A DNA stretch of 64,000 nucleotides from a marine actinobacterium MedAcidi-G3 (GTDB lineage Bacteria > Actinomycetota > Acidimicrobiia > Acidimicrobiales > Poriferisodalaceae), in the NCBI GenBank assembly GCA_000817105.1, contig JUEP01000011.1:1-64000 (forward strand), written 5' to 3'. Within the stretch, counting starts at the first letter, position 1, and every line of letters starts with the position of its first letter. Below the pieces are notes generated by a model, which saw only the letters and a program-made list of their open reading frames with translations, searched no databases and was not told the origin of the DNA. The position numbers were made by a program, and so were the translations under genes. Shown in pieces: positions 19,473 to 39,005 of this stretch.

Positions 19473-20381
19473 ATGAGTGATTATGACGTTGTAGCCACAG
19501 GCTTGCAGTTTCCCGAGGGCCCAGTTTGTATGGCTGATGGATCAGTGTTGTTGGTGGAAATCAAACGGGGGACCATATCTCGCATTGATCCCGATAACGG
19601 ATCTGTTGAAGTAGTGGCACAACCTGGAGGTGGACCAAATGGTGCCGCTGTGGGACCTGATGGTGCTCTTTACGTATGTAACAACGGAGGATTTCTATGG
19701 GGGGAGACCCGAGGGCTGACTGTCCCCGGCTTGGTTCCAGATGATTATTCGTCAGGACGCATTGAACGCATCGATATAAATACCGGGCAAGTTGAGGTTC
19801 TTTATTCAGAAGTGGATGGCGTCCCATTAAAGGGTCCGAATGATCTGATGTTTGATTCGAGCGGAGGATTTTGGTTCACCGATCATGGTAAGACTCGTGC
19901 CCGGACTAGAGATCGGGGTGGTCTCTACTATGGCCGGGCTGACGGTTCTTTCGTTAAAGAAGTTTCGTTCCCTCTCGATGGACCGAATGGTGTTGGTTTA
20001 TCGCCAGAAGAGGACAGAGTTTATGTGGCGGAGACGCATCAAGGGTCAGTCCTTTACTGGGATTTAGCAGGTCATGGAGAGTTAGCTGGATCACCCCATG
20101 GGCGTTTCTTAGCTCGGCCTGCTGGTCGAAAACTTTTTGACTCTCTAGCCATGGATGCTCAAGGAAATGTGAGCGTCGCAACTATCCAGACTGGCGGGAT
20201 TAGTACCTTTACTCCAGAGGGAGAGGAACTCGACTTTTTCTCGGTTGATGACCCGCTTTGCACCAATATCTGTTTCGGTGGACCAGACTTGCGGACGGCA
20301 TTCATAACTCTGTCAGGAACCGGAAAGTTGATACGCACCGAGTGGTCCCGCCCGGGGCTGGCCTTACCATTCTCAAGCTAA
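19473..20381 (+). CDS. SMP-30/gluconolactonase-family lactonase (copy 1)
   Basis: A 302-residue six-bladed beta-propeller of the SMP-30/LRE family, metal-dependent hydrolases that open lactones. Metal-site segments are visible in order: FPEGP (Glu15), GPNDLMFDSSGGFWFTDHG (Asn), DGPNGVGLSPEEDRVYVAET and FDSLAMDAQGNVSVAT (Asp). It is the first gene of the accessory block after ftsK and stands alone on its strand, ending 8 bases from the convergent MBL-fold gene. Its substrate is unknown; a lactone made by one of the Baeyer-Villiger enzymes in the window is possible. Confidence 0.82.
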   Translation: MSDYDVVATGLQFPEGPVCMADGSVLLVEIKRGTISRIDPDNGSVEVVAQPGGGPNGAAVGPDGALYVCNNGGFLWGETRGLTVPGLVPDDYSSGRIERIDINTGQVEVLYSEVDGVPLKGPNDLMFDSSGGFWFTDHGKTRARTRDRGGLYYGRADGSFVKEVSFPLDGPNGVGLSPEEDRVYVAETHQGSVLYWDLAGHGELAGSPHGRFLARPAGRKLFDSLAMDAQGNVSVATIQTGGISTFTPEGEELDFFSVDDPLCTNICFGGPDLRTAFITLSGTGKLIRTEWSRPGLALPFSS

Positions 20382-20389
20382 GTCCTTGG

Positions 20390-21334
20390 CTAGGCGACAC
20401 AATGAGGGAGTTGGCCGCCATTGAGAATGACCATGTCAGCGATTGCAGACTCGACGCCGACCCAATCGTAGGTAGCTTCGGGATTCTCGCGATATGCGAT
20501 ATGGAGGTTCCCTGCTAGCCGCTCGCTATCGGTCAGGTGTTCGAATTCCCCAAGATCGGTCGTTAATGCCTGTTCGACTGGAGATCGTCCAAAGCGCACT
20601 CCTTGTGCTGCTGTCTCTTGCACGAATTCAAGGTAGGTCCGCTGACTCGTCAAGACTTCTTCGATTTCTGATCCAGAAAATGCTGGGCCGTGACCGGGAA
20701 CGATCACCTCGGCACCCTTGGCTTCTATAACGGTGAGAGCTTCGAGGGTTCCTTTTACCGATCCGAACAGAGCGAACGGAGTACCGCCATGAAAGATCAA
20801 ATCGCCGGTAAAGAGAACTCCTTTACTGGGTAACCAGGCCAAAATGTCACCTTCGGTATGGGCGACGAAACCTAAATCAAATAATTCAATTTCTATTCCG
20901 TCGAGATAAATCTTGGTGCTTCCCTCAAAAGTGATGTCTGGTGCACGAAATTGGAGATCTCCCCACTCCACAGATGGAAACGCCGATCGATAGTCGGGGA
21001 TACCCGTGGCCATCATGACGTCTCGACAAGAAGTGTGACTGATGATGGCAGCATCCGGAAATAGATAGTTACCGTGAGTGTGGTCTGCGTGGTGATGAGT
21101 GTTTACCAACAACGTAACTGGATTGGGTGTTACCGAAGCTATTGCAGCTATGTAGGCCCGGTTTCGAAGTTCAGTTGAAGTGGTATCAATACTGACCACT
21201 CCGCTTGTGCCCACTATGAATCCGGTGTTGTTGATAAACCACGTTCCATCTGGTTGCACATAGCTAAACACATCAGGAGCTACCTCGTTTAATAGCCCCG
21301 GGCCAAGGTGGTTGTGTAAGTGATTCGTGCTCAT
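20390..21334 (-). CDS. MBL-fold metallo-hydrolase
   Basis: A 314-residue metallo-beta-lactamase-fold hydrolase. The HxHxDH zinc motif is His80, His82, Asp84 and His85 (NTHHHADHTHGN); the later metal ligands lie in FTGDLIFHGGTP and PGHGPAF. The overall pattern resembles cyclase/dehydrase-type or quinoprotein-relay MBL proteins found beside catabolic genes. The substrate is not identifiable. It is divergent from P450 gene 1 across a 48-base gap. The ATG at 21334 is preceded at six bases by TAAGAT. Confidence 0.8.
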   Translation of the reverse strand: MSTNHLHNHLGPGLLNEVAPDVFSYVQPDGTWFINNTGFIVGTSGVVSIDTTSTELRNRAYIAAIASVTPNPVTLLVNTHHHADHTHGNYLFPDAAIISHTSCRDVMMATGIPDYRSAFPSVEWGDLQFRAPDITFEGSTKIYLDGIEIELFDLGFVAHTEGDILAWLPSKGVLFTGDLIFHGGTPFALFGSVKGTLEALTVIEAKGAEVIVPGHGPAFSGSEIEEVLTSQRTYLEFVQETAAQGVRFGRSPVEQALTTDLGEFEHLTDSERLAGNLHIAYRENPEATYDWVGVESAIADMVILNGGQLPHCVA

Positions 21335-25931: not shown

Positions 25932-26699
25932 TTAACGAGCCCCCTGGGCGTCGTGAACTCGGATGGTTGCACCCGTGACGAAATCAGACGATGGAGAGAC
26001 CAGGTAAAGCAAGGTGCCATCTAATTGTGAGGGTTTACCCAGTCTTTTACGCGGAAAGCCGTGAGTTATATCGCCCATTCGTTCGAGCATGCCGTCCATC
26101 ATTTCGCTTTCAAATGCTCCTGGCGCAATGCAATTGACATTGACGTCATATTTAGCGAACTCCAATGCCAACATTTCGGTCATGCGCACAACCGCGGTCT
26201 TGGTAATCGCATACCAAGAAGTTCCCACACCGGCACTGAAAGCAGCTCCAGAGGAAATGTTGACGATTCGCCCTGGAAGTTTTGCTTCTTTGAGGCGTCG
26301 AGTTACTTCGCTGGCAAGGTGGAATAAAGATGTCAAGTTTGTGGCGACCATCTCATCCACAAAGGCCGGATCCATGTTCAGCGCGAGCTGGGCATCGGGC
26401 TTGCCAGCGTTATTTACGAGAATTTGAATGGGGCCGAGTTCGTTTTGGACATGACCTACTGCGGTGAAGAGAGCATCTGTGTCTGTGACGTCGAGGGGGA
26501 CAGGAAGCACAGTGACTCCATTGCTTCTCAGTTCTGCGGCGAGCGCGTCGAGTCGTTCGGCGCGCCGACCGGCGATAGCGACATTGGCTCCGCAAGCGGC
26601 TAACACTTGCGCAAATCTGTGGCCCAACCCAGAAGTAGCACCGGTGACCAAAGCGGTCTGTCCAGTTAGATCCGTCGAAAAATTTGGAATGTCTGTCAT
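25932..26699 (-). CDS. Short-chain dehydrogenase/reductase
   Basis: A 255-residue classical SDR. GATSGLG near the N-terminus and an Arg-Arg pair after beta-2 (AIAGRRAERLD) suggest NADP(H). NNAG follows, then WYAITKTAVV with the Tyr-Lys pair. The start at 26699 has GGAGG 7 bases upstream; an in-frame ATG at 26714 lacks that support. In the mRNA the SD falls in the loop of a 5-bp hairpin (TGTGG and CCACA). It is divergent from another SDR gene, with 120 bases between the starts. The substrate is unknown. Confidence 0.87.
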   Translation of the reverse strand: MTDIPNFSTDLTGQTALVTGATSGLGHRFAQVLAACGANVAIAGRRAERLDALAAELRSNGVTVLPVPLDVTDTDALFTAVGHVQNELGPIQILVNNAGKPDAQLALNMDPAFVDEMVATNLTSLFHLASEVTRRLKEAKLPGRIVNISSGAAFSAGVGTSWYAITKTAVVRMTEMLALEFAKYDVNVNCIAPGAFESEMMDGMLERMGDITHGFPRKRLGKPSQLDGTLLYLVSPSSDFVTGATIRVHDAQGAR

Positions 26700-26819
26700 G
26701 TGGTTCCTCCACAAAAGTAAGGATTACTGCTCTTCTGTTTAGGCGGAGAAGGAATGATCGTCTAATCGAGTGCGAACGAATTAAGGTGCGCGATGTCGAA
26801 TGATCCATTGATCCTTTAG

Positions 26820-27572
26820 GTGGGGAGAGTCAAAGACGGAACTCGGGCCTTAGTTACTGGCGGCGGGTCAGGTATAGGTCGGTCAATCGTTGCGGGCTTA
26901 CGGTCAGCCGGGGCCCTTGTCCTCGTGTGTGACGCTGATTCCGCTACTAACCCAGATTTTGTGGTGGATGTAGTAGAAGAAGAATCTGTCCAGCGAATGT
27001 TTACATCCATCGAACGGGATTTGGGTGGCTTAGACGTCTTAGCAAATAATGCAGGGATTGCTGGCCCCGCTGGGCTGGTCGATGAAATCCCTAGTGATGC
27101 TTTTGACCAGGTAGTTGCATTCAATATTGGTGGAACTTTTAGAGTCACAAGGCATGCAGTGCCGCTTTTGAGGTCATCTGGAGGCGGGCTGATATTTAAC
27201 ATAGCTTCAACTGCGGGGATCTTCCCTTACCCCTATCGATCACCGTATGTTGCTTCGAAATGGGCGATGGTTGGTCTTGGGCAAAGTTGGGCGATGGAAT
27301 TAGGCGAGGATAATATTCGAGTCAACGTCATCTGCCCCGGGTCTGTCGGTGGGTCCCGAATGGACCAAGTGATGGCTCGAGAGGCTGAGGCAAAAGAGAT
27401 AGACGAAGCGGTTCTCTGTAGCGGCTATGAAAGCCAAGTTTGAATGCGGCGGTTTATAGATGCAGCTGATATTGCGGGTGCCGTTGTTTACATGGCCTCA
27501 CCGGCCGGTCGGTATGTCTCAGGTCAAGTGCTCTCCGTAGACGGAGCGACGGAGAGTTTGAGAAGTTCCTGA
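26820..27572 (+). pseudogene. SDR gene interrupted by an in-frame TGA
   Basis: A classical SDR reading frame of 250 codons with VTGGGSGIGR, NNAGIAGPAG and YVASKWAMVG. It carries an in-frame TGA at 27441-27443. The same frame continues uninterrupted through MRRFIDAADIAGAVVYMAS and VSGQVLSVDGATE to a TGA at 27570. That tail is the standard SDR C-terminus, so the break is a single internal stop. The family usually has Ser before the MR-F segment, and TCA to TGA is one base change. The first part alone (26820-27443, 207 residues) would lack the last helix and strand of the fold. The start is GTG at 26820. Possible causes are a recent nonsense mutation, a sequencing error or readthrough. Confidence 0.8.
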
Positions 27573-27633
27573 GCAGGGAGCCTTGCTATAGGGCACACTC
27601 TTGGGGGTCCGTACTTGTACAGGAGTTACCAAA

Positions 27634-28284
27634 GTGAATGTCACCGACGCAACCAATCGGAGAGCATCGATCAGAGCTTTCCTCCCGGACCCTGTCAGCG
27701 ATGAACAGATCAGAGAACTCTTAGAAGTGGCCTCAAGGGCCCCCTCAGGCGGAAATGTCCAGCCTTGGAAGGTTTATGTCGTCAATGGGGATTCCATGGA
27801 ACGTTTCAGATCTTTCATATCGAACAGGAGTCCCGGGGAATCTGAATACCCGGTGTATCCACCGAGCCTCCAAGACCCTTATCGAACTAATCGATATGAA
27901 CTAGGTGAGGCGATGTACGAAAAGCTTGGAATTCCCCGCGAGGATAAACCAGCCCGGCTCACTCAACTTGCTCGAAATTTTGATTTCTTTGGAGCACCCG
28001 CAGCTTTCTTCTGTTTTATTGAAAGAAATATGGGCTCGGCGCAGTGGTCGGACCTAGGCATGTTTTTGCAGACTTTCATGCTGTTGGCTGTCGAGGCCGG
28101 TTTGGACACCTGTCCTCAGGAGGCTTGGGCCAACCATTGGTCAGCAGTGCAAGAATTTTGTGCGGCTCCGGAACAAGAAATGCTTTTTTGTGGGATGGCT
28201 ATCGGGAAACGCGATGAGTCGAAGCCCGTCAATAGTCTCAGAAGTGACCGGATGGCGGTCGACGAGTGGACCAACTGGCTGTGA
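27634..28284 (+). CDS. Nitroreductase-family FMN oxidoreductase (copy 1)
   Basis: A 216-residue nitroreductase-family flavoprotein. RRASIRAFLPDPV binds the FMN phosphate and ASRAPSGGNVQPWKV is the family signature. The AWANHW and LFCGMAIGKRDES segments near the end match the nitrobenzoate/nitroreductase group that reduces nitro groups, quinones or enoates. The start at GTG 27634 is set by AGGAG 8 bases upstream; the frame runs up to a TTG at 27601 without support. It lies 10 bases upstream of a second nitroreductase. Confidence 0.85.
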   Translation: MNVTDATNRRASIRAFLPDPVSDEQIRELLEVASRAPSGGNVQPWKVYVVNGDSMERFRSFISNRSPGESEYPVYPPSLQDPYRTNRYELGEAMYEKLGIPREDKPARLTQLARNFDFFGAPAAFFCFIERNMGSAQWSDLGMFLQTFMLLAVEAGLDTCPQEAWANHWSAVQEFCAAPEQEMLFCGMAIGKRDESKPVNSLRSDRMAVDEWTNWL

Positions 28285-28294
28285 GGATCAGAAC

Positions 28295-28948
28295 ATGAAT
28301 GACATTTACGAGATGATGAGCACCTTGCGGGCTGTTCGTCGCCTCCGCCCAGACCCCATCCCCGATGACGTACTGAATCGGGTCTTACAGGCAGCGGCTT
28401 GGGCTCCTACTGGCGGAAATATGCAACCATGGCGCGTGATCGTGGTGACGAGTCAGGAACGCAAAAAGGCGCTGGCAGATATTTATCAGCCAGCTTGGTA
28501 TCGGTATGCCAAAGGCTATGACGAGCGACTCAAGCAGCTCCCGCCGGATGAAGCCGACAAAGCTCGAAGAAATAGGGTGGCGGGTGACTATTTGGCAGAT
28601 AATTTGGCCGACTGCCCATCTATTTTGATGTTCATTGCCGACCCTAAATTAATGGCAATTACGGACGCTAAATTGGATCGAATTTCGATGGTTGGTGGCG
28701 GTTCGGTCTACACGGCAGTGCAAAACGCTATGTTGGCGGCGCGCACTGAAGGTCTTGGCTGTGTTCTAACTACCTTGCATTGCTTAGCGGAGGATGAAGT
28801 CAAGATGGCTTTGGATATTCCGAACGACTGGGCGACTCTGGCGATGGTCCCTCTCGGCTACCCCATTGGCGCTGGCCATGGCAGTATTACGCGACAACCT
28901 CCTGAGGTACTTGCGTTTGACGATGCCTTCGGAGTTGCCTGGACTTGA
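28295..28948 (+). CDS. Nitroreductase-family FMN oxidoreductase (copy 2)
   Basis: A 217-residue protein of the same family as the gene before it. It begins MNDIYEMMSTLRAVRRLRPDP and has AAWAPTGGNMQPWRV as FMN signature and GLGCVLTTLH near residue 165. The ATG at 28295 follows the upstream stop by 10 bases and is preceded by GAGGA. The two proteins are paralogous but clearly diverged. They may form a heterodimer or act on successive substrates, which is inference. The downstream transporter overlaps its stop codon. Confidence 0.85.
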   Translation: MNDIYEMMSTLRAVRRLRPDPIPDDVLNRVLQAAAWAPTGGNMQPWRVIVVTSQERKKALADIYQPAWYRYAKGYDERLKQLPPDEADKARRNRVAGDYLADNLADCPSILMFIADPKLMAITDAKLDRISMVGGGSVYTAVQNAMLAARTEGLGCVLTTLHCLAEDEVKMALDIPNDWATLAMVPLGYPIGAGHGSITRQPPEVLAFDDAFGVAWT

Positions 28949-29907
28949 TCGTGCCAGCTAACCGGGTGCCGACTGTCTTTTCAGTTAGCAAAATCGGAGA
29001 TGACGAACCGGGAGCGGGCAAAGTAACTCCCTCCCATGCGTTGCCATTAGTCGTAATGGCAGTAGTCGTCATAGTCTGGGGCTTAGGTCCCCCCACGACG
29101 AAGCTCGTGACAGCACCTCCGCTTATCGGAACTTTTGTTCGTTTCGGGATCTCGTCACCGCTTCTTATCGTCGTCTTGGCAGCAAGGCGACGGGTTTTGT
29201 CGCGGAAGGTGTTCATAGCAACTGCTCTCCCGGGCCTCTCCTTCGGCATTAATTTGGTATTTGTTTTCGCCACTCTTCAGGAGGCGACAGTCTCAGTCTT
29301 GTCGACAGTCGTGGCGATGCAGCCCGCACTTTTATTGGTGCTCGCAGGACCTTTGTTTCATGAATACCCGACTGGTCGGCAATTTACGTTCACCTTGGCC
29401 GGGGTTTTAGGCGCTGTTGGCGTAATTCTTGGAGCAGGTTCAGAGATTCGATCTTCTTGGTTAGGTGTCGGCTTAGCTGCGCTCTCATTAGTTACGTTCA
29501 CTCTTTATTTCGTGTTAACCCGCTTAGCTAGGTCCGATAACGAGGTAGATCCGATCGAATGGATGGCTGGCATCAATATTTGGGCTTTTCTGTCCACAAT
29601 TATTCCGATTTTGCTGCTCGCTGATCGATCTGACTGGGCGCAATTTGGAGGTAATGATTGGATTTGGATCGTGATCGTCGCCTTTGTTACTGGTGTCTTT
29701 GGGCATGTTTTAATGACATGGTTGCACGGCCACCTAGAAGCTGCGCGATCGTCTCTGTACATATTGACCATGCATTTGGTGGCCGTGGGACTCGCTTGGT
29801 GGATACATGATGAATCGATTACCTGGTTGCAGATGATTTCGGGCGGAGTGGTTCTGCTATGCGTGGCTTTGGTGGTTACTGCTCCTGATCGGCGTGAGGT
29901 TCGATGA
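28945..29907 (+). CDS. EamA/DMT-family membrane transporter
   Basis: A 320-residue membrane protein with about ten hydrophobic helices in two EamA repeats: the first around VWGLGPPTTKLV and the second around SLVTFTLYFVLTRLA. DMT transporters export amino acids, metabolites or drugs. The start is TTG at 28945, overlapping the nitroreductase stop (TTGA); GTG at 28951 is an alternative. The 3' end overlaps the convergent alkylsulfatase gene by 32 bases, an unusually tight convergent arrangement. Confidence 0.8.
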   Translation: MIVPANRVPTVFSVSKIGDDEPGAGKVTPSHALPLVVMAVVVIVWGLGPPTTKLVTAPPLIGTFVRFGISSPLLIVVLAARRRVLSRKVFIATALPGLSFGINLVFVFATLQEATVSVLSTVVAMQPALLLVLAGPLFHEYPTGRQFTFTLAGVLGAVGVILGAGSEIRSSWLGVGLAALSLVTFTLYFVLTRLARSDNEVDPIEWMAGINIWAFLSTIIPILLLADRSDWAQFGGNDWIWIVIVAFVTGVFGHVLMTWLHGHLEAARSSLYILTMHLVAVGLAWWIHDESITWLQMISGGVVLLCVALVVTAPDRREVR

Positions 29908-31795
29908 TGGGGAACAGGAGAAAATCTGTTAGCAGGTCAAATAGCTCTAATACGACAGCTTGGTCTCCGTCGATCGTGATGTCACCTTGAGCAAGCGAGT
30001 CAGAAAATGAGACTATGCCGCCTAGAGTGTCGGCCAGAACATGGCGATTGAGAGTAACGGAAGCCACGGCATTACTGGTTTGACGGTCGGGTAAATGGTG
30101 TATCGCACAATTGGATATGCCCAGAACGTGGTGTTCGTTTAGGTCCGTAAAAGTCCAGTTAATCTCTATGTCTAAATCGCAAAGGGCTGTTGTGCTTAGT
30201 CGAACACCAATCGAGTCAAATAGCTGCTCAGCAGTCATTGCGTGTGCTATCTGTCGTCCTCTGCCAATAGTGACGTTGGGAGATCCGTTGCGAAGCTCAT
30301 GGGCTCCGTAAAGGTATGCATTTCGCCATGTGCCGGATTCGGCCTGGTAACCGAGTTGTTCAAAGGCATCGGCTTGAAGCTCTCTGGCAGCCTGATGTGA
30401 AGGGTCAGCAAAAACTAAATGATTCACCACCTGCGCCACCCAACGGTAGTCACCCGCTTCAAAACTTTTTTTTGCCTGACGAAGTACTTGATCGGGACCG
30501 CCCATGAATTCGACGTACTTTGTGCTGGTGTCTACTGGCGGGTGAGGGTTTAAGTGTGCGGGATTTGCGTCGTACCACCCAAGGTATTTGTTATAAACCG
30601 ATTTAACGTTGTGACTCACCGTTCCGTAATACCCCTGGACATGGGAATCCGAAGCGAAACATTCGGGTAGTTCCAGTGCTTCAGCGATTTCGTTTGGTGT
30701 CCATCCTCGGTTAGCTAGTCGCATTGTTTGGTCGTGCAGCCAGCGATAAACGTCGCGTTGCTTAACTAGAAAATGCTTCAAATCTTCGGTTCCGAAACGA
30801 GGCCAATGGTGAGTGGCGATCAAGATATCGGAATTGTCGCCCCATAAATCCAATGCTTCGTTTATGTACTTGGACCAAGCAAGAGCATCGCGAGTTTGGG
30901 CACCTCTTATTGGGTAGAGGTTGTGCATGTTGTGGGTGCAGTTCTCAGCCATGCAAAGCATTCGATAATCAGGAAACCAAAAGTTCATTTCGGCCGGTGC
31001 TTCGGCATCCGGCGTGTTTTGGAAGACGACTCGCACCCCATCTATCTCAAGCTCAATGCCCGTACTATCGATGATTTCTGTAGGAGCGATAAGTCCTGAC
31101 GGGCTGAATGGTAAAGCTTTACCAAGCCCGTTATCAATATGCCCTCTAGGCCCGGGAGACAGAAATAAACCGAATTGGTACATGGCTCTTCGTGCCATAG
31201 CAGCTCCGGCAATAACGTTTTCGTTAACAACCTCTTCTAGGAAGCCTTCAGGCGCAATTATCCGAACATCTCCCCGATCTACTTCTTCTGGCGTAGTGAC
31301 ACCGAGAATTCCGCCAAAGTGATCTGCGTGGGAATGGGTGTAAATTATGGCTTTAACAGGTCTTTCCCCTAGTTGATCATTCGCAAGTTTGAGGCATGCC
31401 TCCGCGGTAGCAGCGGTCGTCAAAACGTCAACGAGGATCCAACCGGTCTTTCCAGCTATGAGTGTCAGATTTGAAATGTCATATCCGCGAACTTGCCAGA
31501 CACCATCCATTACCTCGAAAAGGCCGTGGATTGCGTTCAGGCGACCTTGACGCCACAGCCCTGGGTGGACTGTTTCAGGGGCTTCGTCGTTGTTGCGCAG
31601 GAAATCATAGCGAGCACAGTCCCACACCACGTGATCGTCAATCTTGACTGTGCCTTCGGGCAGCGTTGCGATGAGTCCTTGTTCGGCCCTCTCGAAATCT
31701 GCTTCGTCATCGAAAGACATCAACGCGGTCGCGGCAGCGTTCTTCCGAACCGTAGGTGTGGTTGCGTCTTTCGCGAGGTTATCTAGGTCTGACAT
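29876..31795 (-). CDS. Alkylsulfatase (SdsA-type, MBL fold with SCP2-like C-terminus)
   Basis: A 639-residue alkyl/aryl-sulfatase of the SdsA1 class, which hydrolyses primary alkyl sulfates to alcohol and sulfate. THSHADHFGG carries the binuclear zinc HxHxDH motif; MAENCTHNMHNLYPIRG and ATHHWPRFG carry further ligands and catalytic residues. The alpha-helical dimerisation domain follows, and an SCP2-like domain ends the protein. Unlike SdsA1 of Pseudomonas it shows no signal peptide, so it probably acts in the cytosol. The ATG at 31795 has AGGGGA 5 bases upstream; an ATG at 31858 overlaps the neighbouring gene and is less likely. It lies 37 bases downstream of the acyl-CoA dehydrogenase stop, probably in one unit. 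Confidence 0.88.
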   Translation of the reverse strand: MSDLDNLAKDATTPTVRKNAAATALMSFDDEADFERAEQGLIATLPEGTVKIDDHVVWDCARYDFLRNNDEAPETVHPGLWRQGRLNAIHGLFEVMDGVWQVRGYDISNLTLIAGKTGWILVDVLTTAATAEACLKLANDQLGERPVKAIIYTHSHADHFGGILGVTTPEEVDRGDVRIIAPEGFLEEVVNENVIAGAAMARRAMYQFGLFLSPGPRGHIDNGLGKALPFSPSGLIAPTEIIDSTGIELEIDGVRVVFQNTPDAEAPAEMNFWFPDYRMLCMAENCTHNMHNLYPIRGAQTRDALAWSKYINEALDLWGDNSDILIATHHWPRFGTEDLKHFLVKQRDVYRWLHDQTMRLANRGWTPNEIAEALELPECFASDSHVQGYYGTVSHNVKSVYNKYLGWYDANPAHLNPHPPVDTSTKYVEFMGGPDQVLRQAKKSFEAGDYRWVAQVVNHLVFADPSHQAARELQADAFEQLGYQAESGTWRNAYLYGAHELRNGSPNVTIGRGRQIAHAMTAEQLFDSIGVRLSTTALCDLDIEINWTFTDLNEHHVLGISNCAIHHLPDRQTSNAVASVTLNRHVLADTLGGIVSFSDSLAQGDITIDGDQAVVLELFDLLTDFLLFPIIEPHADQEQ

Positions 31796-31832
31796 AGTGT
31801 TCCCCTGGGTAGATCTGGAGAATCTATCTCGC

Positions 31833-33011
31833 TTATTGGTCGAACTTAACCGTTCCATAGGTAGTCGGCAGAGACTTGGCGATACGGTCGGTCATGATCT
31901 CTGTCGAACCGTCGACGTAGTTGGCAACCCTGCCAGCGGTCAATCTGTGTCCAATAAGATGCTCTTCCCTTAAGCCATTTGCGCCCATCGCTTGGGCACA
32001 AGCTGAAAGCGCTGACTCGACTACTTCGGTCGCAAATTTCTTTGCATGAGCTGCAGGTAAAATTGCTGATTCGCTATCGCCGTGCTCTATCGCGGCAATA
32101 GCTTTGTCTGTTAATGCGCGTGCTGCCTCTACCTGATTGGCGACTCTCGCTAATTGCCATGAAAGTCCTTGGTGTTCGATTATCGGCTTTCCAAAGCTTT
32201 CTCGCTCGGTTGCATATTCGACTGATAAGCGCAAAGAAGCTTCGATCATCGAACAACACATTGATGCTACGTAGGTCCGTGCTTCGTTGATGGTGGATAA
32301 CGCCGCCGAAAAACCCTCACCCGCCGGGGCCAACAAATCTTCTTTATCAGATGAGTAGTTGTTGAGGCGAAACCCACCAGTTCCAATTGCGTGACTCCCA
32401 ATGAGGTCGTATGGCGCAATTCGTTCAAAACCTGATTTTGTCCCATCAATCAGAAAAGAGGCAATGCCGCGGGCCCGAGACCCGGGGCTTGTCTGGACGT
32501 AAGCGACTATTACCGAGGACGTGGCAGCGTTGGTAATCCAGGCTTTTTCGCCATTTAGACGCCACCCGTCCCCATCAGAAGTTGCCTCAGTAGCGATTGA
32601 CGAGAAATCGCTCCCGGCGGTGGGTTCGGTGAGAGCGGTTGAGCCGAGTTTCTTGCCGCTAAGTAAATCTGGAAGGAAGCGACTTCGTTGGTCCTCAGTT
32701 CCGTGACGAGCCAGTCTCGCTGCAACGTTGTGAGAATTGACCAAACTAAAGGCGTAGGGCATCGAAACTTCTGACAGGAGATCTAAAATCTGTAATTTTT
32801 GTCCAAAGCTCACTCCGAGACCGCCAAGCTCGGGCTCTATCTCCATTCCTAAAAGACCTATTTCATTCGCTGCAGCGATGTCTTCTGCAGGAAAAGTTCG
32901 ATTTCTTTCCCATTCGAGAACTTGGGGACCGACTACTCGATCCCGGAAATCTTTGACTTGGAGAAGTAAATCCTGGAAATCGTTTTCAGGCAATCCATTA
33001 GGTTGGCTCAT
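31833..33011 (-). CDS. Acyl-CoA dehydrogenase
   Basis: A 392-residue FAD enzyme catalysing alpha,beta-desaturation of an acyl-CoA. LTEPTAGSDFSS and WITNAATSS are the FAD-binding and substrate signatures. INEARTYVASM, QLARVANQVEAARAL and AMGANGLREEHLIGHRLTAGR complete the C-terminal helical domain. At the position of the usual catalytic Glu (YEGT) the sequence is VDGST, an Asp. The base may be Asp, or may lie on another helix as in isovaleryl-CoA dehydrogenase. ATG at 33011 has TAGGGT six bases upstream. Confidence 0.9.
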   Translation of the reverse strand: MSQPNGLPENDFQDLLLQVKDFRDRVVGPQVLEWERNRTFPAEDIAAANEIGLLGMEIEPELGGLGVSFGQKLQILDLLSEVSMPYAFSLVNSHNVAARLARHGTEDQRSRFLPDLLSGKKLGSTALTEPTAGSDFSSIATEATSDGDGWRLNGEKAWITNAATSSVIVAYVQTSPGSRARGIASFLIDGTKSGFERIAPYDLIGSHAIGTGGFRLNNYSSDKEDLLAPAGEGFSAALSTINEARTYVASMCCSMIEASLRLSVEYATERESFGKPIIEHQGLSWQLARVANQVEAARALTDKAIAAIEHGDSESAILPAAHAKKFATEVVESALSACAQAMGANGLREEHLIGHRLTAGRVANYVDGSTEIMTDRIAKSLPTTYGTVKFDQ

Positions 33012-33023
33012 GCTTTGACCCTA
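33012..33023 (-). promoter_or_regulatory. Leaderless-type -10 element for the acyl-CoA dehydrogenase
   Basis: Minus-strand TAGGGT (33023-33018) lies six bases before the ATG at 33011. No SD. Confidence 0.55.
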
Positions 33024-33033
33024 GATGCCTGCG

Positions 33034-33047
33034 TAAAGTCATTCACT
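33034..33047 (+). promoter_or_regulatory. Possible near-leaderless -10 element for the Nudix gene
   Basis: TAAAGT at 33034-33039 lies eight bases before the GTG at 33048. It would share the 36-base divergent gap with the acyl-CoA dehydrogenase promoter. Confidence 0.35.
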
Positions 33048-33644
33048 GTGGAAGACGTTTTCTCTCCTGCCTCTTTAGAACAAGTTTTGTTGTCTGGCGT
33101 GGCGCCGCCCACGCAAGGACCTACTGCCGCTGTGGCAGCAGTCGCGCGCAATGGCCTTTCGGGTGCAGAAATCTTGTTCATAGAACGTTCAGCTAAACGA
33201 GGTGACCCTTGGTCGGGTCAGATGGCTTTCCCCGGTGGAAGATCTTCTGAGGAGGATGAAGACAGTCTTGCTACAGCTGTTCGGGAAACTATGGAAGAAG
33301 TTGCAATAGACCTTGCAGTTTCACGATTGGTCGGCCGCCTATCAGACTTGGAGGGAGGTCCACGGGGCACAGGTCAGCGTCTTAAGGTAACTCCCTACGT
33401 TTTCTGGATGGCGGGGCCACGACCGAGCGCTACTCCGAATCACGAAGTTGCTGAAGTCATCTGGGTTCCGGTTAGCGAGTTGCTCGACTCCAGCCGATAC
33501 ATCGATTACCCGTATCCTCCGCTTGGCCCTGATGAATGGCCCGGAATCACAGTTGAGGGGGAGAGGGTGATTTGGGGCTTAACACTGCGAATGCTCGTTG
33601 ATTTGTTTCAGCGAGTGGGTCAACCCTTGACAATCAGGTCGTGA
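33048..33644 (+). CDS. Nudix hydrolase, CoA pyrophosphatase (NudL)-like
   Basis: A Nudix protein of about 198 residues. ERSAKRGDPWSGQMAFPGG matches the extended motif of the CoA pyrophosphatase subgroup, which cleaves CoA and acyl-CoAs to phosphopantetheine and ADP. It runs into the Nudix box GGRSSEEDEDSLATAVRETM followed by EEVAI; the usual Gly after EE-x is Ala here. I place the start at GTG 33048. The frame stays open to a TTG at 33003 that would overlap the divergent acyl-CoA dehydrogenase start codon. Its place among acyl-CoA genes suits CoA turnover. Confidence 0.75.
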   Translation: MEDVFSPASLEQVLLSGVAPPTQGPTAAVAAVARNGLSGAEILFIERSAKRGDPWSGQMAFPGGRSSEEDEDSLATAVRETMEEVAIDLAVSRLVGRLSDLEGGPRGTGQRLKVTPYVFWMAGPRPSATPNHEVAEVIWVPVSELLDSSRYIDYPYPPLGPDEWPGITVEGERVIWGLTLRMLVDLFQRVGQPLTIRS

Positions 33645-33658
33645 GGCTCTGGTCTGAA

Positions 33659-33670
33659 TAGGCTATGTGT
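33659..33670 (+). promoter_or_regulatory. Leaderless-type -10 element for Baeyer-Villiger gene 1
   Basis: TAGGCT at 33659-33664 lies six bases before the ATG at 33671. The earlier ATG at 33665 directly abuts the hexamer, so 33671 is preferred. Confidence 0.45.
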
Positions 33671-35311
33671 ATGAGTTCTTCTTCGCCCATTAGTTCAGAA
33701 GGTCCCCCTGAAAGCTTGCGTTCTTCTGATGTCGATGTAGTTGTCGTCGGCGCTGGCTTTGCTGGTATGTACATGTTGCATCGGCTTCGCATGTGCGGAT
33801 ATTCGGTTCGCGTTTTTGAAGCGGGAACGGATGTGGGAGGCACTTGGTACTGGAACAGGTACCCAGGCGCTCGATGTGATGTTGAGAGCTTGGAGTACAG
33901 CTACAGCTTCGATACAGATCTGGAACAGCAGTGGGAATGGACTGAGCGATACTCTGGTCAACCAGAAATCCTTGCCTACGCTAAGCATGTGGCAGATCGT
34001 TTTGATTTGCGATCCGACATAAGGTTTGAGACCCGTGTCGAAAAAGCAGATTTCGATGAGTCCGGCAACTCGTGGCGCATTGAGACTAGTGACGGTGAAA
34101 TTACTGTTAGCCGGTTTTTTGTAATGGCAACTGGCTGCCTATCCTCAACGACGCTGCCAGATATTGCAGGCATAGAAGACTTTGAGGGAACAACCGTTCA
34201 CACAGGTCAGTGGCCGAAGGAGGGCGTTCAGTTAGAGGGCAAGCGCGTTGCCATTATTGGGACTGGTTCTTCGGGAGTACAAGCGATCCCCGTTATCGCT
34301 GAACAGTGTGAAGAGCTGACTGTTTTTCAACGGACCCCGCAGTACACGATTCCGGCGAGAAATGAGCCGCTAGAAGCTGCTCGCCAGGTTGACGTAAAGA
34401 GTCGGTATAAAGAATTTCGGGAAGCGAACTTTGCTATGCCTCAGGCTCTCGGGTCGGAGATTCCTAAATTCAATGATTCAATTCATGAGGTATCGGAGGA
34501 AGAAAGGTTAGAAAGGTTTGAGCAGGCGTGGGAGCGCGGAGGCACTTTGTTCATGGCTTCTTTCAATGATGTGCTTGTGGATGAATCAGCCAATGTCCAC
34601 GCCCAAGATTTCGTCCGGGAAAAGATTTCAGAGATTGTTGAGGATCGGGAAGTAGCTGCAATGCTGACTCCCGAGCACATAATCGGCTGCAAACGTTTAG
34701 TTATTGATACGGACTACTTTGAGACATTTAATCGGCCAAATGTTCAACTAGTTGACGTCAGCCAAGATCCGATCCGAGAAATAACTAGTTCGGGTCTAGC
34801 AACCGAAGAAAACGATTTTGAGTTCGATGTTCTGATTTTTGCTACTGGCTTTGACGCTATGACTGGCTCCATTTTACGTATAGCGATTACCGGGCGAGAT
34901 GGATTGACGATACAAGAGAAATGGTCAGCTGGGCCCAGTACTTATTTAGGTCTTACGGTCCCGGGCTTTCCAAACATGTTCGCAATATCAGGTCCGGGGA
35001 GCCCATCAGTGCTTACCAACATGATTATCTCGATCGAGCAACATGTTGAGTGGATTAGCGACTGCATTACTTGGTTGGATACCAAGGAGGCCTCAACTAT
35101 CGAAGCGTCGCCTGGGTCTGAGGATGAATGGGTGGCACACGTCAACGCGAAGGCGGATAGGACTTTATTCCCAGGATGTAATTCCTGGTACCTAGGAGCA
35201 AATGTTCCAGGTAAGACCCGTGTATTTATGCCCCTCCTTGGTTTTCCGGGTTATGTTCGTCGGTGCAATGAAGTGGCTGAAAACGATTATGAAGGATTTG
35301 TGATCCGATGA
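33671..35311 (+). CDS. FAD-dependent Baeyer-Villiger monooxygenase (type 1, copy 1)
   Basis: A 546-residue class B flavoprotein monooxygenase that inserts oxygen next to a ketone, giving an ester or lactone. The first Rossmann motif is GAGFAGMYMLHRL. GGTWYWNRYPGARCDVES follows, then the Baeyer-Villiger fingerprint FEGTTVHTGQWP (FxGxxxHxxxW). The NADPH Rossmann motif is GTGSSGVQAIP. Similarity is to the cyclohexanone/phenylacetone monooxygenase group. It overlaps the lactonase gene by 4 bases (ATGA), and an alpha/beta hydrolase follows, a logical oxidise-then-open order. The ATG at 33665, two codons earlier, is an alternative start. Confidence 0.92.
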   Translation: MSSSSPISSEGPPESLRSSDVDVVVVGAGFAGMYMLHRLRMCGYSVRVFEAGTDVGGTWYWNRYPGARCDVESLEYSYSFDTDLEQQWEWTERYSGQPEILAYAKHVADRFDLRSDIRFETRVEKADFDESGNSWRIETSDGEITVSRFFVMATGCLSSTTLPDIAGIEDFEGTTVHTGQWPKEGVQLEGKRVAIIGTGSSGVQAIPVIAEQCEELTVFQRTPQYTIPARNEPLEAARQVDVKSRYKEFREANFAMPQALGSEIPKFNDSIHEVSEEERLERFEQAWERGGTLFMASFNDVLVDESANVHAQDFVREKISEIVEDREVAAMLTPEHIIGCKRLVIDTDYFETFNRPNVQLVDVSQDPIREITSSGLATEENDFEFDVLIFATGFDAMTGSILRIAITGRDGLTIQEKWSAGPSTYLGLTVPGFPNMFAISGPGSPSVLTNMIISIEQHVEWISDCITWLDTKEASTIEASPGSEDEWVAHVNAKADRTLFPGCNSWYLGANVPGKTRVFMPLLGFPGYVRRCNEVAENDYEGFVIR

Positions 35312-36129
35312 GTGAACTCGAGTTATTGACCGAGGGTTGGGGGCTTATAGAAGCGCCCAGAGTTGACGAAAACGATCGACTTTATTTTTCTGATGTTCCG
35401 AACGGTGGTGTTCATAGACGGCTGCCCAGCGGCGAAATCGAGACGGTAGTCCCGAAGCGTCGAGGAGTTGGGGGAATGGTGTTTCACCGTGACGGAGGCT
35501 TGGTTATTGGCGGAAGAAATATTCAGCATGTCAATAACGGGGAAACACGTGTCCTGTTCGATCCTGGCTTTCCGGGTTTCAACGATCTTCATACTGATTC
35601 CTTAGGTCGGGTCTACGTCGGCTCATTAAAAGTCGACCCCTTCGACGAAGGGGCTGAGAACCCCGGTGGCGAGTTGTGGCGGCTAGATGTTGAAGGTCAA
35701 GCAACAGAAATGTATGACGGGGTGTTGCTAACGAATGGAATTGGCTTTTCTCCTGATGGTTCCCTTTTGTACCATGCTGACAGTGTCCCCGGAAGGGTCT
35801 GGGTGTCTGATGTAGATGGCGACTCTGTGACTAACAAAAGAGTTTTTGTCGAGGATCGCATTAATGCAACTGATGGTCTGGCTGTGGATGTTGAGGGTGG
35901 TGTTTGGGTAGCGCAGCCGAGTGGGGGAAAGGTTCAGAGGTATACGCCTGATGGCGTCGCCGATCTAACTGTGGAGATACCAGACCCGATGGTTACTAGC
36001 TTGTGCTTCGGTGGAGCGGACCTTAAAGATCTGTACGTGGTTACTGGGGGTCAGAGTCCTTTGGGGGGCTGTATCTATCGAACGAGAGTCGATATTTCAG
36101 GAATGTCAGTCCCTAAAGCAACTATTTGA
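35308..36129 (+). CDS. SMP-30/gluconolactonase-family lactonase (copy 2)
   Basis: A 273-residue six-bladed propeller of the SMP-30/LRE family. It shows the entry motif IEAPRVDENDRLYFSDV with the metal-ligand Glu, TNGIGFSPDGSLLYHADS with Asn, and INATDGLAVDVEGGVWVAQ with Asp. The ATG overlaps the end of the Baeyer-Villiger gene (ATGA), so translation is coupled. The context strongly suggests that it hydrolyses the lactone made by that monooxygenase; this is inference. It differs clearly in length and sequence from copy 1 at 19473. Confidence 0.88.
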   Translation: MSELELLTEGWGLIEAPRVDENDRLYFSDVPNGGVHRRLPSGEIETVVPKRRGVGGMVFHRDGGLVIGGRNIQHVNNGETRVLFDPGFPGFNDLHTDSLGRVYVGSLKVDPFDEGAENPGGELWRLDVEGQATEMYDGVLLTNGIGFSPDGSLLYHADSVPGRVWVSDVDGDSVTNKRVFVEDRINATDGLAVDVEGGVWVAQPSGGKVQRYTPDGVADLTVEIPDPMVTSLCFGGADLKDLYVVTGGQSPLGGCIYRTRVDISGMSVPKATI

Positions 36130-36157
36130 GTTTCTTCAGTTGAGAATCATTAATTAT

Positions 36158-36170
36158 TAGGGTGCCGACA
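36158..36170 (+). promoter_or_regulatory. Leaderless-type -10 element for the alpha/beta hydrolase
   Basis: TAGGGT at 36158-36163, seven bases before the ATG at 36171. A GTG at 36162 sits inside the hexamer, which argues against it as the start. Confidence 0.45.
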
Positions 36171-36950
36171 ATGCAGGAAATGCCGTTCTACTGGTCGTAT
36201 GGGCTGGAAAGCAGCAATCTAATTTTTTGTATGCACGGGATTGGCTCCTGCGCAGATGCCTTCCTTCCTCAACGAGAGATTGCAGACCATCTCAGCTGCC
36301 GAGTTGTTGCTTGGGATGCTCCGGGGTATCGCTACTCAGCTGATCCAGCGAATGAGCCGGGCATAGATGGATGGGCAGATGCGGCTGCGGACTTGATTCG
36401 CCGGCTGGGTTATGAGCGGTCAACAGTTCTTGGCGTTTCATGGGGCGGGGTAACTGCAACTCGCTTAGCTTTGCGCCACCCTGACCTAGTTGAAGCCCTC
36501 ATACTGGCTGATTCGAGCGTAGGGTCGGGAACAAGTTCGAAAAACGCGGAAGCAATGCGCAGCAGGGCATCAACTTTGACTGATTTAGGTGCCGCCGAAT
36601 TTGCTAAACAGCGGGCTCCTCTATTGGTAAGCGAGAAAACTGAGCCTGAGGTGTTGGAAGATGTTCAGCGCTTGTTCGCTGACTCTGTTCGGATGCCCTC
36701 GTATCAGTGGGCATGTAACTCGATGGCTGATACTGATCATCGAGATTCTTTGCTATCGATAGAAGCGCCGACGCTTGTTATTTGCGGAGAGGAAGATCGC
36801 GTTACTCCACCAAAGTTGTCGGCTCAACTTGCCGAAGGTATTCCAAATTCAAGGCTTGTCCATATAGAGGACGCGGGACACTTGGCTAATCAGGAGAAAT
36901 TCGAGAATTTCAACCGAGAAGTATCCAACTTTATTCAATCAATTGACTAG
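36171..36950 (+). CDS. Alpha/beta-hydrolase
   Basis: A 259-residue alpha/beta-hydrolase fold enzyme. The oxyanion segment is HGIGSCADAF, the nucleophile elbow GVSWGG has Ser90, the acid is Asp209 in CGEEDRVTPP and the base is His237 in EDAGH. It resembles the meta-cleavage-product and lactone/ester hydrolases that follow ring-opening oxygenases. It lies 41 bases after the lactonase and is probably part of the Baeyer-Villiger unit, with its own -10-like box. The start may instead be GTG at 36162. It ends 11 bases from the convergent SDR. Confidence 0.85.
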   Translation: MQEMPFYWSYGLESSNLIFCMHGIGSCADAFLPQREIADHLSCRVVAWDAPGYRYSADPANEPGIDGWADAAADLIRRLGYERSTVLGVSWGGVTATRLALRHPDLVEALILADSSVGSGTSSKNAEAMRSRASTLTDLGAAEFAKQRAPLLVSEKTEPEVLEDVQRLFADSVRMPSYQWACNSMADTDHRDSLLSIEAPTLVICGEEDRVTPPKLSAQLAEGIPNSRLVHIEDAGHLANQEKFENFNREVSNFIQSID

Positions 36951-36961
36951 GTGTTTTAGCC

Positions 36962-37741
36962 CTATCGCGGTGGCATTCGAATACCACCGTCGCAGCGAAT
37001 GGTTTCACCGTTCATGTATGGGTTGGTGATGCATTCCATCACCATAAATGCCAATTCTTCCCCGTAGCCGAGACGTTTCGGGAAGAGAACGCTTTGACCT
37101 AGATGCGCTTTGAACTGATCGGATTGTTCGCCCTCTCCATAGATGGGAGTGTCGATTAGTCCAGGAGCAACGGTGTTGATACGGATACCCGTGGCTGACA
37201 AGTCACGCGCTATTGGCAGCGTCATACCCACCACACCACCTTTAGATGCTGAGTAGGCGGCTTGACCGATTTGACCATCGAAAGCGGCGGCGGAGGCCAT
37301 ATTGACTATTGCGCCTCTCGAACCATCTTCATCAACAGGATCAGTTTGAGCCATAGCAGCGGCAGATTGGGCCAACATGTTGTAGGTACCGATGAGATTT
37401 ACCTTGATCACGAACTCAAATTGCCCCAGGTCAGCGGGCACGTTGTTGCGGTCAATGGTTCTTGCTGCTCTTCCGAGCCCCGCTGAATTTACTAGAGCAC
37501 GTAATGGGCCCATTTCTGAGGCAGCGTTAACAGCAGCCTGGGCATCTTCGATATTCGAAACATCACACTTTACGAATAGTCCACCTAACTCGGAAGCGAC
37601 TTCTTGACCTTTGTCTTCTTGGAGGTCTGCAATGACGACTCGAGAGCCAGCGTTGGCCAGTTGTCGAGCGGCAGCTTCACCGATGCCAGATGCTCCTCCT
37701 GTGACTATGGACGAACTTGCTTGAAGGTTCATTCTTGGCAT
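36962..37741 (-). CDS. SDR, type II 3-hydroxyacyl-CoA dehydrogenase-like
   Basis: A 259-residue SDR closest in motif pattern to the HSD17B10/type II 3-hydroxyacyl-CoA dehydrogenase group. Features are VTGGASGIGEAAARQLA and VIADLQEDKG with Asp after beta-2, favouring NAD. The long insertion RTIDRNNVPADLGQFEFVI, AAYSASKGGVVGMTLPIARDL, APGLIDTPIY and the ending MNGETIRCDGGIRMPPR also fit. It would oxidise a 3-hydroxyacyl-CoA, or a steroid-like alcohol, to the ketone. Its ATG overlaps the thiolase stop (TAATG), so the two are coupled, and thiolase is the next step in beta-oxidation. Confidence 0.87.
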   Translation of the reverse strand: MPRMNLQASSSIVTGGASGIGEAAARQLANAGSRVVIADLQEDKGQEVASELGGLFVKCDVSNIEDAQAAVNAASEMGPLRALVNSAGLGRAARTIDRNNVPADLGQFEFVIKVNLIGTYNMLAQSAAAMAQTDPVDEDGSRGAIVNMASAAAFDGQIGQAAYSASKGGVVGMTLPIARDLSATGIRINTVAPGLIDTPIYGEGEQSDQFKAHLGQSVLFPKRLGYGEELAFMVMECITNPYMNGETIRCDGGIRMPPR

Positions 37742-38910
37742 TATGAATCCAATCTTTCGATAATCGTTGCATTAGCCATGCCGCCACCTTCGCACATGGT
37801 TTGGAGGCCGAATCTGCCTTCAGTTCGCTCTAGTTCGTTGAGAAGAGTAGCCATCAGTTTGGTACCGGAGCATCCGAGGGGATGCCCAAGCGCTATTGCG
37901 CCGCCGTTGACGTTAGTTCTGCTGAGATCTGTTCCATGTTCTTTTTGCCAAGCGAGGACAACAGAAGCGAAAGCCTCGTTGACTTCAAATAGGTCAATGT
38001 CATCAATAGTGAGACCTGAACGAGACATAACTTTCTCTGTCGCTGGAATTGGCCCTTTCAACATCGTTACTGGGTCGGCACCTGCGAGGGCGAAGGTATG
38101 AAATCTTGCTCGAGGGCGCAGGCCTAACTCAGCTGCTTTCTCTGCGCTCATCACCAGAACAGCTGATGCTCCATCGGTGATTTGGCTTGAGTTGCCGGCT
38201 GTTACCTTGCCGTCTTCACGAAATGCCGGGTTGAGCTTTGCGAGGGAATCAGCTGTGGTTTCGTAACGGATACCCTCATCTTTTGTCATCATTTCGAGGT
38301 TGCCGTCTACGTCGACCGGCACTGGAACAATCTCATTATCGAAGCGCCCCTCGGCAGTCGCTACTGCAGCTCGCCTCTGGCTTTCTGCACCAAAAGCGTC
38401 AAGATCTTCACGGCTGAAGCCGTATTCGTCGGCGATCATTTCGGCTCCGATTCCCTGGGGCGGCAAACCGGTTTCTTCGTAACGGTTTTGCATGGTTTCA
38501 CTAAATGGAAATCCCATGCCTTTGACAACGCTCGCCCCCATGGGGGTGCGGGTCATAACCTCGACGCCAGCTGCAACCGCTACGTCGTAGGCGCCGGCGA
38601 TTACCCCTTGGGCAGCAAAGTGGAGTGCTTGTTGGCTTGACCCACATTGCCGGTCGACTGTTGTCGCTGGGACTGATTCAGGCCAACCAGCAGCGAGGAC
38701 TGCATTTCGGCCGATGTTCAGCGACTGTTCGCCAACCTGCATAACGCAGCCCATAATCACGTCGTCGATGACTGAAGGGTCGATACCTGTTCGTTCTTCT
38801 AGGGCTTTTAGAACATGGGCTGCGAGGTCGACTGGGTGCCAGTCCTGCAGCTTGCCATTTCGCTTTCCGCCTGGCGTTCTTACCGCGTCAACGATGACTG
38901 CTTCTCTCAT
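37741..38910 (-). CDS. Thiolase (acetyl-CoA C-acyltransferase)
   Basis: A 389-residue degradative-type thiolase that cleaves 3-ketoacyl-CoA with CoA. The nucleophile is Cys89 in VDRQCGSSQQAL, His343 lies in GGAIALGHPLGCSG, and the second Cys373 lies in TMCEGGGMAN. The start at 38910 gives the canonical MREAVIVDAVRTPGGK and has AGGAG 7 bases upstream; the frame continues unconserved to 38988. It forms an operon with the 3-hydroxyacyl-CoA dehydrogenase-like SDR. Confidence 0.93.
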   Translation of the reverse strand: MREAVIVDAVRTPGGKRNGKLQDWHPVDLAAHVLKALEERTGIDPSVIDDVIMGCVMQVGEQSLNIGRNAVLAAGWPESVPATTVDRQCGSSQQALHFAAQGVIAGAYDVAVAAGVEVMTRTPMGASVVKGMGFPFSETMQNRYEETGLPPQGIGAEMIADEYGFSREDLDAFGAESQRRAAVATAEGRFDNEIVPVPVDVDGNLEMMTKDEGIRYETTADSLAKLNPAFREDGKVTAGNSSQITDGASAVLVMSAEKAAELGLRPRARFHTFALAGADPVTMLKGPIPATEKVMSRSGLTIDDIDLFEVNEAFASVVLAWQKEHGTDLSRTNVNGGAIALGHPLGCSGTKLMATLLNELERTEGRFGLQTMCEGGGMANATIIERLDS

Positions 38911-39005
38911 GGGTTTACTCCTAATCGGGACCGTTCGGAATGGTACTCCGAATTTCAATAGCGAATCGTAGATCGTGTTAGGGCGCATGAGCCAACTCTG
39001 AGCGC

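Follow-up and report, generated by a model that had tools for sequence, protein, structure and literature searches.

What does a Baeyer-Villiger monooxygenase (BVMO) gene have to do with the two hydrolase genes that follow it in a marine actinobacterium? In MedAcidi-G3 (Acidimicrobiales, Poriferisodalaceae), a BVMO gene runs directly into a gene for an SMP-30/gluconolactonase-type protein, and an alpha/beta hydrolase gene comes next. We analysed a window of 64,000 nucleotides, positions 1 to 64,000 of contig JUEP01000011.1 in a 2.1-Mb assembly (GCA_000817105.1). The first-pass annotation had read the three genes as a compact ring-cleavage module whose products pass to a convergent short-chain dehydrogenase/reductase (SDR) and a thiolase next door. 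We consider it reasonably likely that the locus is a catabolic four-gene unit, in which the BVMO would oxidise a ketone and the hydrolases would split the product, and that SMP-30 and the hydrolase together make up a self-standing cassette.

The layout itself is as the first-pass annotation described it. All three genes are intact open reading frames (ORFs), co-directional on the forward strand and closely packed in one operon-like run. At the junction CCGATGAGT, the BVMO stop codon TGA and the SMP-30 start codon ATG overlap by four bases (ATGA), and the 41 bases given between the SMP-30 stop and the hydrolase are correct when counted to the ATG at 36171. In relatives, homology to the hydrolase sets in at residues 3-9 counted from the GTG start; this fits the ATG without proving it. 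For the BVMO, the start taken in the first pass was the second ATG of the ORF, at 33671. A Nudix hydrolase gene on the same strand, which the first pass did not mention, stops 20 bases short of the BVMO start, and in most of the family loci with enough upstream sequence a Nudix gene precedes SMP-30 or the BVMO. It is probably part of the unit, giving the four-gene order Nudix-BVMO-SMP-30-alpha/beta hydrolase. The Nudix protein scores 62.3 bits with the NCBIfam CoA pyrophosphatase model, under its cut-off of 134.

We followed the order through 39 genomes of the family, the window's own included, calling orthologues at an identity of at least 66% for SMP-30 and at least 70% for the BVMO. The SMP-30 and hydrolase orthologues are adjacent on the same strand, with the hydrolase directly downstream, in 30 of the 39 genomes, that is, in every genome carrying both (30/30). 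Directly upstream of the pair, 18 of these 30 genomes (18/39 of the family) have the BVMO orthologue; this count includes a copy in G004 (88% identical) that is cut by a contig end. The four-base BVMO/SMP-30 overlap, as ATGA or GTGA, is kept in 16 of the 18, the remaining two, both of genus g6, having ∼120 bases between the genes. Nonsynonymous divergence (dN) is far under synonymous divergence (dS) for every unit gene against near relatives wherever dS was computable, some pairs being saturated. In a quick tree, the locus BVMOs fall into a single clade tracking the genera (SH-aLRT 99). Among named records, the nearest are metagenome genomes assigned to Acidimicrobiales/Acidimicrobiaceae, MED-G01 for example. 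Thus the three-gene order, whose conservation the first-pass annotation had set as a test of its reading, recurs in 18 of the 39 genomes, but only inside part of one family. Nine genomes have no orthologous pair: two (G009 and G015) carry an SMP-30 of only 46-47% identity, and the other seven have none at 1e-40. A candidate co-loss of SMP-30, hydrolase and locus BVMO in G021, G028 and G032 was not used as evidence, as SDR and Nudix are also gone and an assembly gap is just as likely.

The 12 genomes in which the pair has no BVMO orthologue before it are 11 of genus g5 and G026. In g5 loci without an insertion, SMP-30 follows Nudix after ∼125-160 bases, whereas ∼6.5 kb separates the two in G024, G033 and G062; in G035, no Nudix gene was found within 5.4 kb upstream. 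For G061, whose contig stops 228 bases upstream of SMP-30, absence of the BVMO rests on the genome search, in which the best BVMO was 57% identical. The one insert that was scanned (L111, 1543-7555) contains SbcC, SbcD and a DUF222/HNH gene between Nudix and SMP-30. In G026, the ∼149 bases between Nudix and SMP-30 correspond to the 5' leader of the BVMO region plus the final BVMO bases of G018 and G023, two genomes of the same genus, an apparent deletion scar of the BVMO (L104:8190-8375) in one metagenome assembly. Both SMP-30 and the hydrolase are under purifying selection in these loci, with dN of 0.02-0.08 and dS of 0.25-0.89 for g5 pairs, and dN of 0.07-0.14 and dS of 1.1-1.7 for G026 pairs. 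As the pair persists under such selection without a locus BVMO, and does so in 12 of 30 family genomes, it appears to be independent of the locus BVMO and not tied to the product of that enzyme.

Several observations weigh against the reading of a four-gene unit with a separate hydrolase pair. Other BVMOs are present in 10 of the 11 g5 genomes (two to four each, at most 59% identical; G062 has none at the threshold) and in G026, which carries four, and SMP-30 in these genomes could still act on the product of another BVMO. G026 is a single metagenome assembly in which misassembly is possible. The SMP-30 tree gives 85/91 to a branch excluding g5, which favours a later gain of the BVMO; the SDR tree gives only 67/77 and does not settle gain versus loss of the BVMO in g5. 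Lastly, DFPase has the same fold, and SMP-30-fold proteins need not be lactonases. The g5 lineage may be the derived side, as no thiolase was detected beside its SDR, whereas g3, g8 and g9 have one. In favour of the reading, the nearest g5 BVMOs included in the tree (those of G019 and G035, and those on contigs shared with G011 and G036) group in a clade of their own with a second BVMO of the window's genome, a further G036 copy lies elsewhere in the tree, and none of these is found in the locus clade.

The identities assigned in the first pass are backed by Pfam domains, namely SGL in SMP-30, Abhydrolase_1 in the hydrolase, and Pyr_redox and FMO-like in the BVMO. Residue conservation was read from alignments of 29 BVMO, 44 SMP-30 and 44 hydrolase rows, which include repeat loci per genome, so that genomes are fewer than rows; the roles of the conserved residues are presumed from the respective families. 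SMP-30 matches PF08450 at 1.8e-54, its score standing against a Pfam cut-off of 26.3 bits, and its nearest relative by sequence is a Caulobacter xylonolactonase (PDB 7plb). Its structural model (predicted local distance difference test, pLDDT, 84) is closest in Foldseek to regucalcin (3g4e), luciferin-regenerating enzyme (5d9b) and xylonolactonase (7plc), with a template modelling score of 0.90 over the query length against 3g4e, as expected for a beta-propeller. Residues E15, N92, D93, N143 and D189 are invariant in 44/44 rows; among them, we take E15, N143 and D189 to be the Glu, Asn and Asp metal ligands, presuming the positions and the Glu ligand from regucalcin. Although the protein shares its fold and the aligned Asn/Asp positions with the Caulobacter xylonolactonase and regucalcin (7plb and 3g4e), it is only 24-29% identical to them, and sugar lactone specificity is not implied. 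SMP-30 is a probable metal-dependent lactonase. The hydrolase has a presumed Ser93-Asp212-His240 triad, likewise invariant in 44/44 rows. Its sequence and a weak model (pLDDT 69.6; root-mean-square deviation ∼6.4-8.3 Å among the listed matches), used for fold class only, are closest to esterases. PcaD (3-oxoadipate enol-lactonase) was rejected for this protein, as 123.8 bits against a cut-off of 255.85 place it in the esterase/lactonase superfamily only.

Type I BVMOs use FAD, NADPH and O2 and carry the fingerprint FxGxxxHxxxW[P/D] between two Rossmann GxGxxG motifs. In the window BVMO, the fingerprint reads FEGTTVHTGQWP at residues 173-184, and F173, G175, H179, W183 and P184 are invariant in 29/29 rows. 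The first Rossmann motif (GAGFAG, 29-34) is present in 13 rows, the other 16 being cut there, and the final G of the second (GTGSSG, 199-204) is replaced by A in 9 of 29. Near full-length matches, at 613.5 bits to steroid monooxygenase (4ap1) and at 611.1 bits to phenylacetone monooxygenase (1w4x), relate this BVMO to those two enzymes, and cyclohexanone monooxygenases score well under them at 493 bits or less. The top NCBIfam match, PtlE (pentalenolactone D synthase), was rejected at 298.4 bits against a curated cut-off of 1100.

Table 1. Genes of the BVMO unit and its convergent neighbours (window coordinates)
Feature	Coordinates	Strand	Evidence and remarks
Nudix hydrolase	33003..33644	+	PF00293, 7.9e-13; probable first gene of the unit
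Type I BVMO, steroid/phenylacetone monooxygenase-like	33665..35311	+	PDB 4ap1 and 1w4x matches; fingerprint motif at 173-184
SMP-30/gluconolactonase-type six-bladed beta-propeller, probable metal-dependent lactonase	35308..36129	+	PF08450, 185.4 bits
Alpha/beta hydrolase, esterase/enol-lactonase-like	36162 (GTG) or 36171 (ATG)..36950	+	PF00561 (Abhydrolase_1), 2.2e-26
SDR, HSD10/type-2 3-hydroxyacyl-CoA dehydrogenase-like; convergent neighbour	36962..37741	-	PDB 4xgn, 9.6e-76; 6ujk, 2.7e-65
Thiolase; convergent neighbour	37741..38988	-	TIGR01930, 471.7 bits, over cut-off 240.55

The order of the genes, their overlap and conservation, the intact residues of the active sites and the versions without a locus BVMO are observed directly in the sequences; the reactions, their coupling and the co-expression of the genes are inferred. 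The BVMO would place an oxygen beside the ketone carbonyl to give an ester or a lactone, which the SMP-30 propeller (lactone) or the serine alpha/beta hydrolase (ester or lactone) would split into a hydroxy acid, or into an acid and an alcohol. The pair may also handle lactones or esters from other sources, and in one branch of the family the BVMO would have been translationally coupled ahead of it.

A special case of this reading, and a real possibility in our view, is an open-chain route, in which the hydrolase cuts the ester that the BVMO forms from a linear, aryl or methyl ketone, and SMP-30 has another role or acts only on a side product. Among characterised BVMOs, the nearest ones, phenylacetone and steroid monooxygenase, are known for open-ester products, and ring cleavage as proposed in the first pass was an assumption. 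The esterase-like character of the hydrolase also fits such a route. However, the gene that is translationally coupled to the BVMO is SMP-30, and SMP-30 retains its presumed metal site. A two-gene precedent employing an esterase is acmA-acmB of Gordonia sp. TY-5, an acetone monooxygenase and an esterase in one operon (PMC6215540). It resembles the window unit in joining a BVMO and a hydrolase in a single operon and differs in having two genes, no SMP-30 protein and acetone as its known substrate.

A single pathway that takes one cyclic ketone through BVMO, lactonase, hydrolase, SDR and thiolase in turn and ends in beta-oxidation is, in our view, distinctly unlikely. The convergent SDR and thiolase are present as annotated, and follow in the same way in BVMO loci that extend far enough; moreover, the nearest solved relative of the thiolase is the steroid thiolase FadA5 (4ubv, 342 bits), and that of the BVMO is a steroid monooxygenase. 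Nonetheless, both genes lie on the opposite strand, and in G009, G014, G015 and G017 (genera g3, g8 and g9) they adjoin each other with no SMP-30, hydrolase or BVMO alongside. Thiolase matches in G014 and G017 are each split into two segments, and in G014 the contig runs on for just 53 bases beyond the SDR; across the whole G014 genome, no SMP-30, hydrolase or BVMO match was found at the thresholds used. The SDR resembles HSD10, and its conservation greatly exceeds that of the unit genes: in these four genomes it is 83-86% identical to the window copy, far over the 46-47% of SMP-30 in G009 and G015. In g5, the SDR stands by the SMP-30/hydrolase pair, yet a thiolase next to it was not detected in 11 of 11 loci and the BVMO is missing, and the G026 locus has kept the thiolase without the BVMO. 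As SDR and thiolase, the latter a general acyltransferase, occur together without the other genes in three other genera, and no thiolase was detected beside the g5 SDR, they probably form a separate unit, an independent beta-oxidation or branched-chain acyl-CoA pair, although it is possible that they take up products of the BVMO unit. Thus, their placement as the next stage is not borne out. Overall, the first-pass reading is partly supported: its observation was correct, and identities, packing and, within one family, gene order stand, whereas its interpretation, plausible but over-extended, is weakened as to the tie to the BVMO product, the SDR/thiolase stage and ring cleavage.

That the genes are chance neighbours, held together by vertical inheritance with no common pathway, is very unlikely. 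Synteny extends from the alkyl sulfatase through to the P450 in L004-L008, and for the most part in the remaining loci of the family, so that by itself it says little about a shared pathway. However, the recurrence of the overlap in 16 of 18 genomes at dS of ∼0.7-2.5 against near relatives, together with dN far below dS, argues against chance, and the block is broken elsewhere (SbcCD insertion; BVMO, acyl-CoA dehydrogenase or thiolase missing) while SMP-30 and hydrolase stay adjacent in 30/30.

Elsewhere in the window, an alkyl-sulfatase-like metallohydrolase gene (PF14863, PF14864) overlaps an acyl-CoA dehydrogenase gene at 29876-33011, divergent to Nudix; the two occur together in several family loci, the acyl-CoA dehydrogenase being reduced or missing in some. 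Two tandem nitroreductase-family ORFs (27601-28284 and 28160-28948) have a listed overlap of 125 bases. A second SMP-30/SGL protein is encoded at 19473-20381, beside a metallo-beta-lactamase-fold gene (20390-21334, reverse strand) and a P450 gene (21320-22570, forward strand).

Away from the locus, we confirmed 580 BVMO relatives and kept the best 80 loci, several of which end at contig ends. Seven of them, L004-L010 at 71-90% identity, represent this same family locus. The other 73 (L011-L083, 54-62% identical) gave 0/73 with an adjacent SMP-30, using tblastn at 1e-10 and iterated hidden Markov models (HMMs) at 1e-3; only in L011 does an SMP-30 gene lie 5.4 kb off, on the opposite strand. Not all of the 73 are outside the family, as paralogues from G011, G036 and G001 account for at least three (L020, L028 and L071, respectively). 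In another 23 loci, at which family genomes carry other BVMOs (L114, L117-L136, L139, L140), iterated HMMs showed no SMP-30. Conversely, 0 of 11 neighbourhoods of distant SMP-30 homologues (L107-L110, L169-L175) had a BVMO at 1e-3; in L108 (G009), an unrelated-looking alpha/beta hydrolase, 21% identical, lies just downstream. Across the class, SMP-30 matches at an E value of 1e-45 or better occur in only 8 of 395 genomes, at 10 places, and we viewed the surroundings of eight. Four plasmid records inspected from 25 listed, of 344 with an SMP-30 match, named no BVMO in their incomplete gene tables: in Rhodococcus and Arthrobacter the SMP-30 gene sits among CoA-ligase or acyl-CoA genes, in Novosphingobium it is part of a sugar cluster, and the context of the Deinococcus copy is not clear. 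Within the reach of these capped searches, the BVMO-SMP-30 pairing is local to one branch of the family. A literature search, made largely without subscription papers, found no paper on a BVMO-SMP-30 gene pair.

Cyclohexanone clusters of the chn type have neighbouring dehydrogenases for the hydroxy acid, aldehyde dehydrogenase above all. No aldehyde dehydrogenase was found among the Pfam-scanned ORFs of 15335-51246, where not every small ORF was scanned; the same interval has SDRs at 25932-26714, 26820-27443 and 36962-37741. The cyclohexanone route (chnB with a caprolactone-opening lactonase) is like the window unit in placing lactone opening after a BVMO. A metagenome paper assigns caprolactone opening after cyclohexanone monooxygenase to a gluconolactonase; its genes are a consortium list with no single taxon holding all (PMC8203775). 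Together, a BVMO and hydrolase unit is of a known type, and what is unusual here is the SMP-30 lactonase in the middle and the hydrolase pair that persists without the BVMO.

BVMO-hydrolase pairs are a standard bacterial means of breaking ketones, and a conserved SMP-30 version in ocean Acidimicrobiales would hint at a ketone used by these uncultured bacteria. A more speculative, and somewhat improbable, extension is that the pair is a plug-in lactone/ester-opening cassette of marine Acidimicrobiales, free of a dedicated oxygenase in some genera and translationally coupled in others to a steroid-type BVMO, where it would form a compact marine route by which a ketone of steroid, terpenoid or alicyclic type is opened, SMP-30 being the dedicated lactonase. 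The unit offers a small, testable enzyme set, and relatives lacking the BVMO provide a natural control for the action of the two hydrolases alone.

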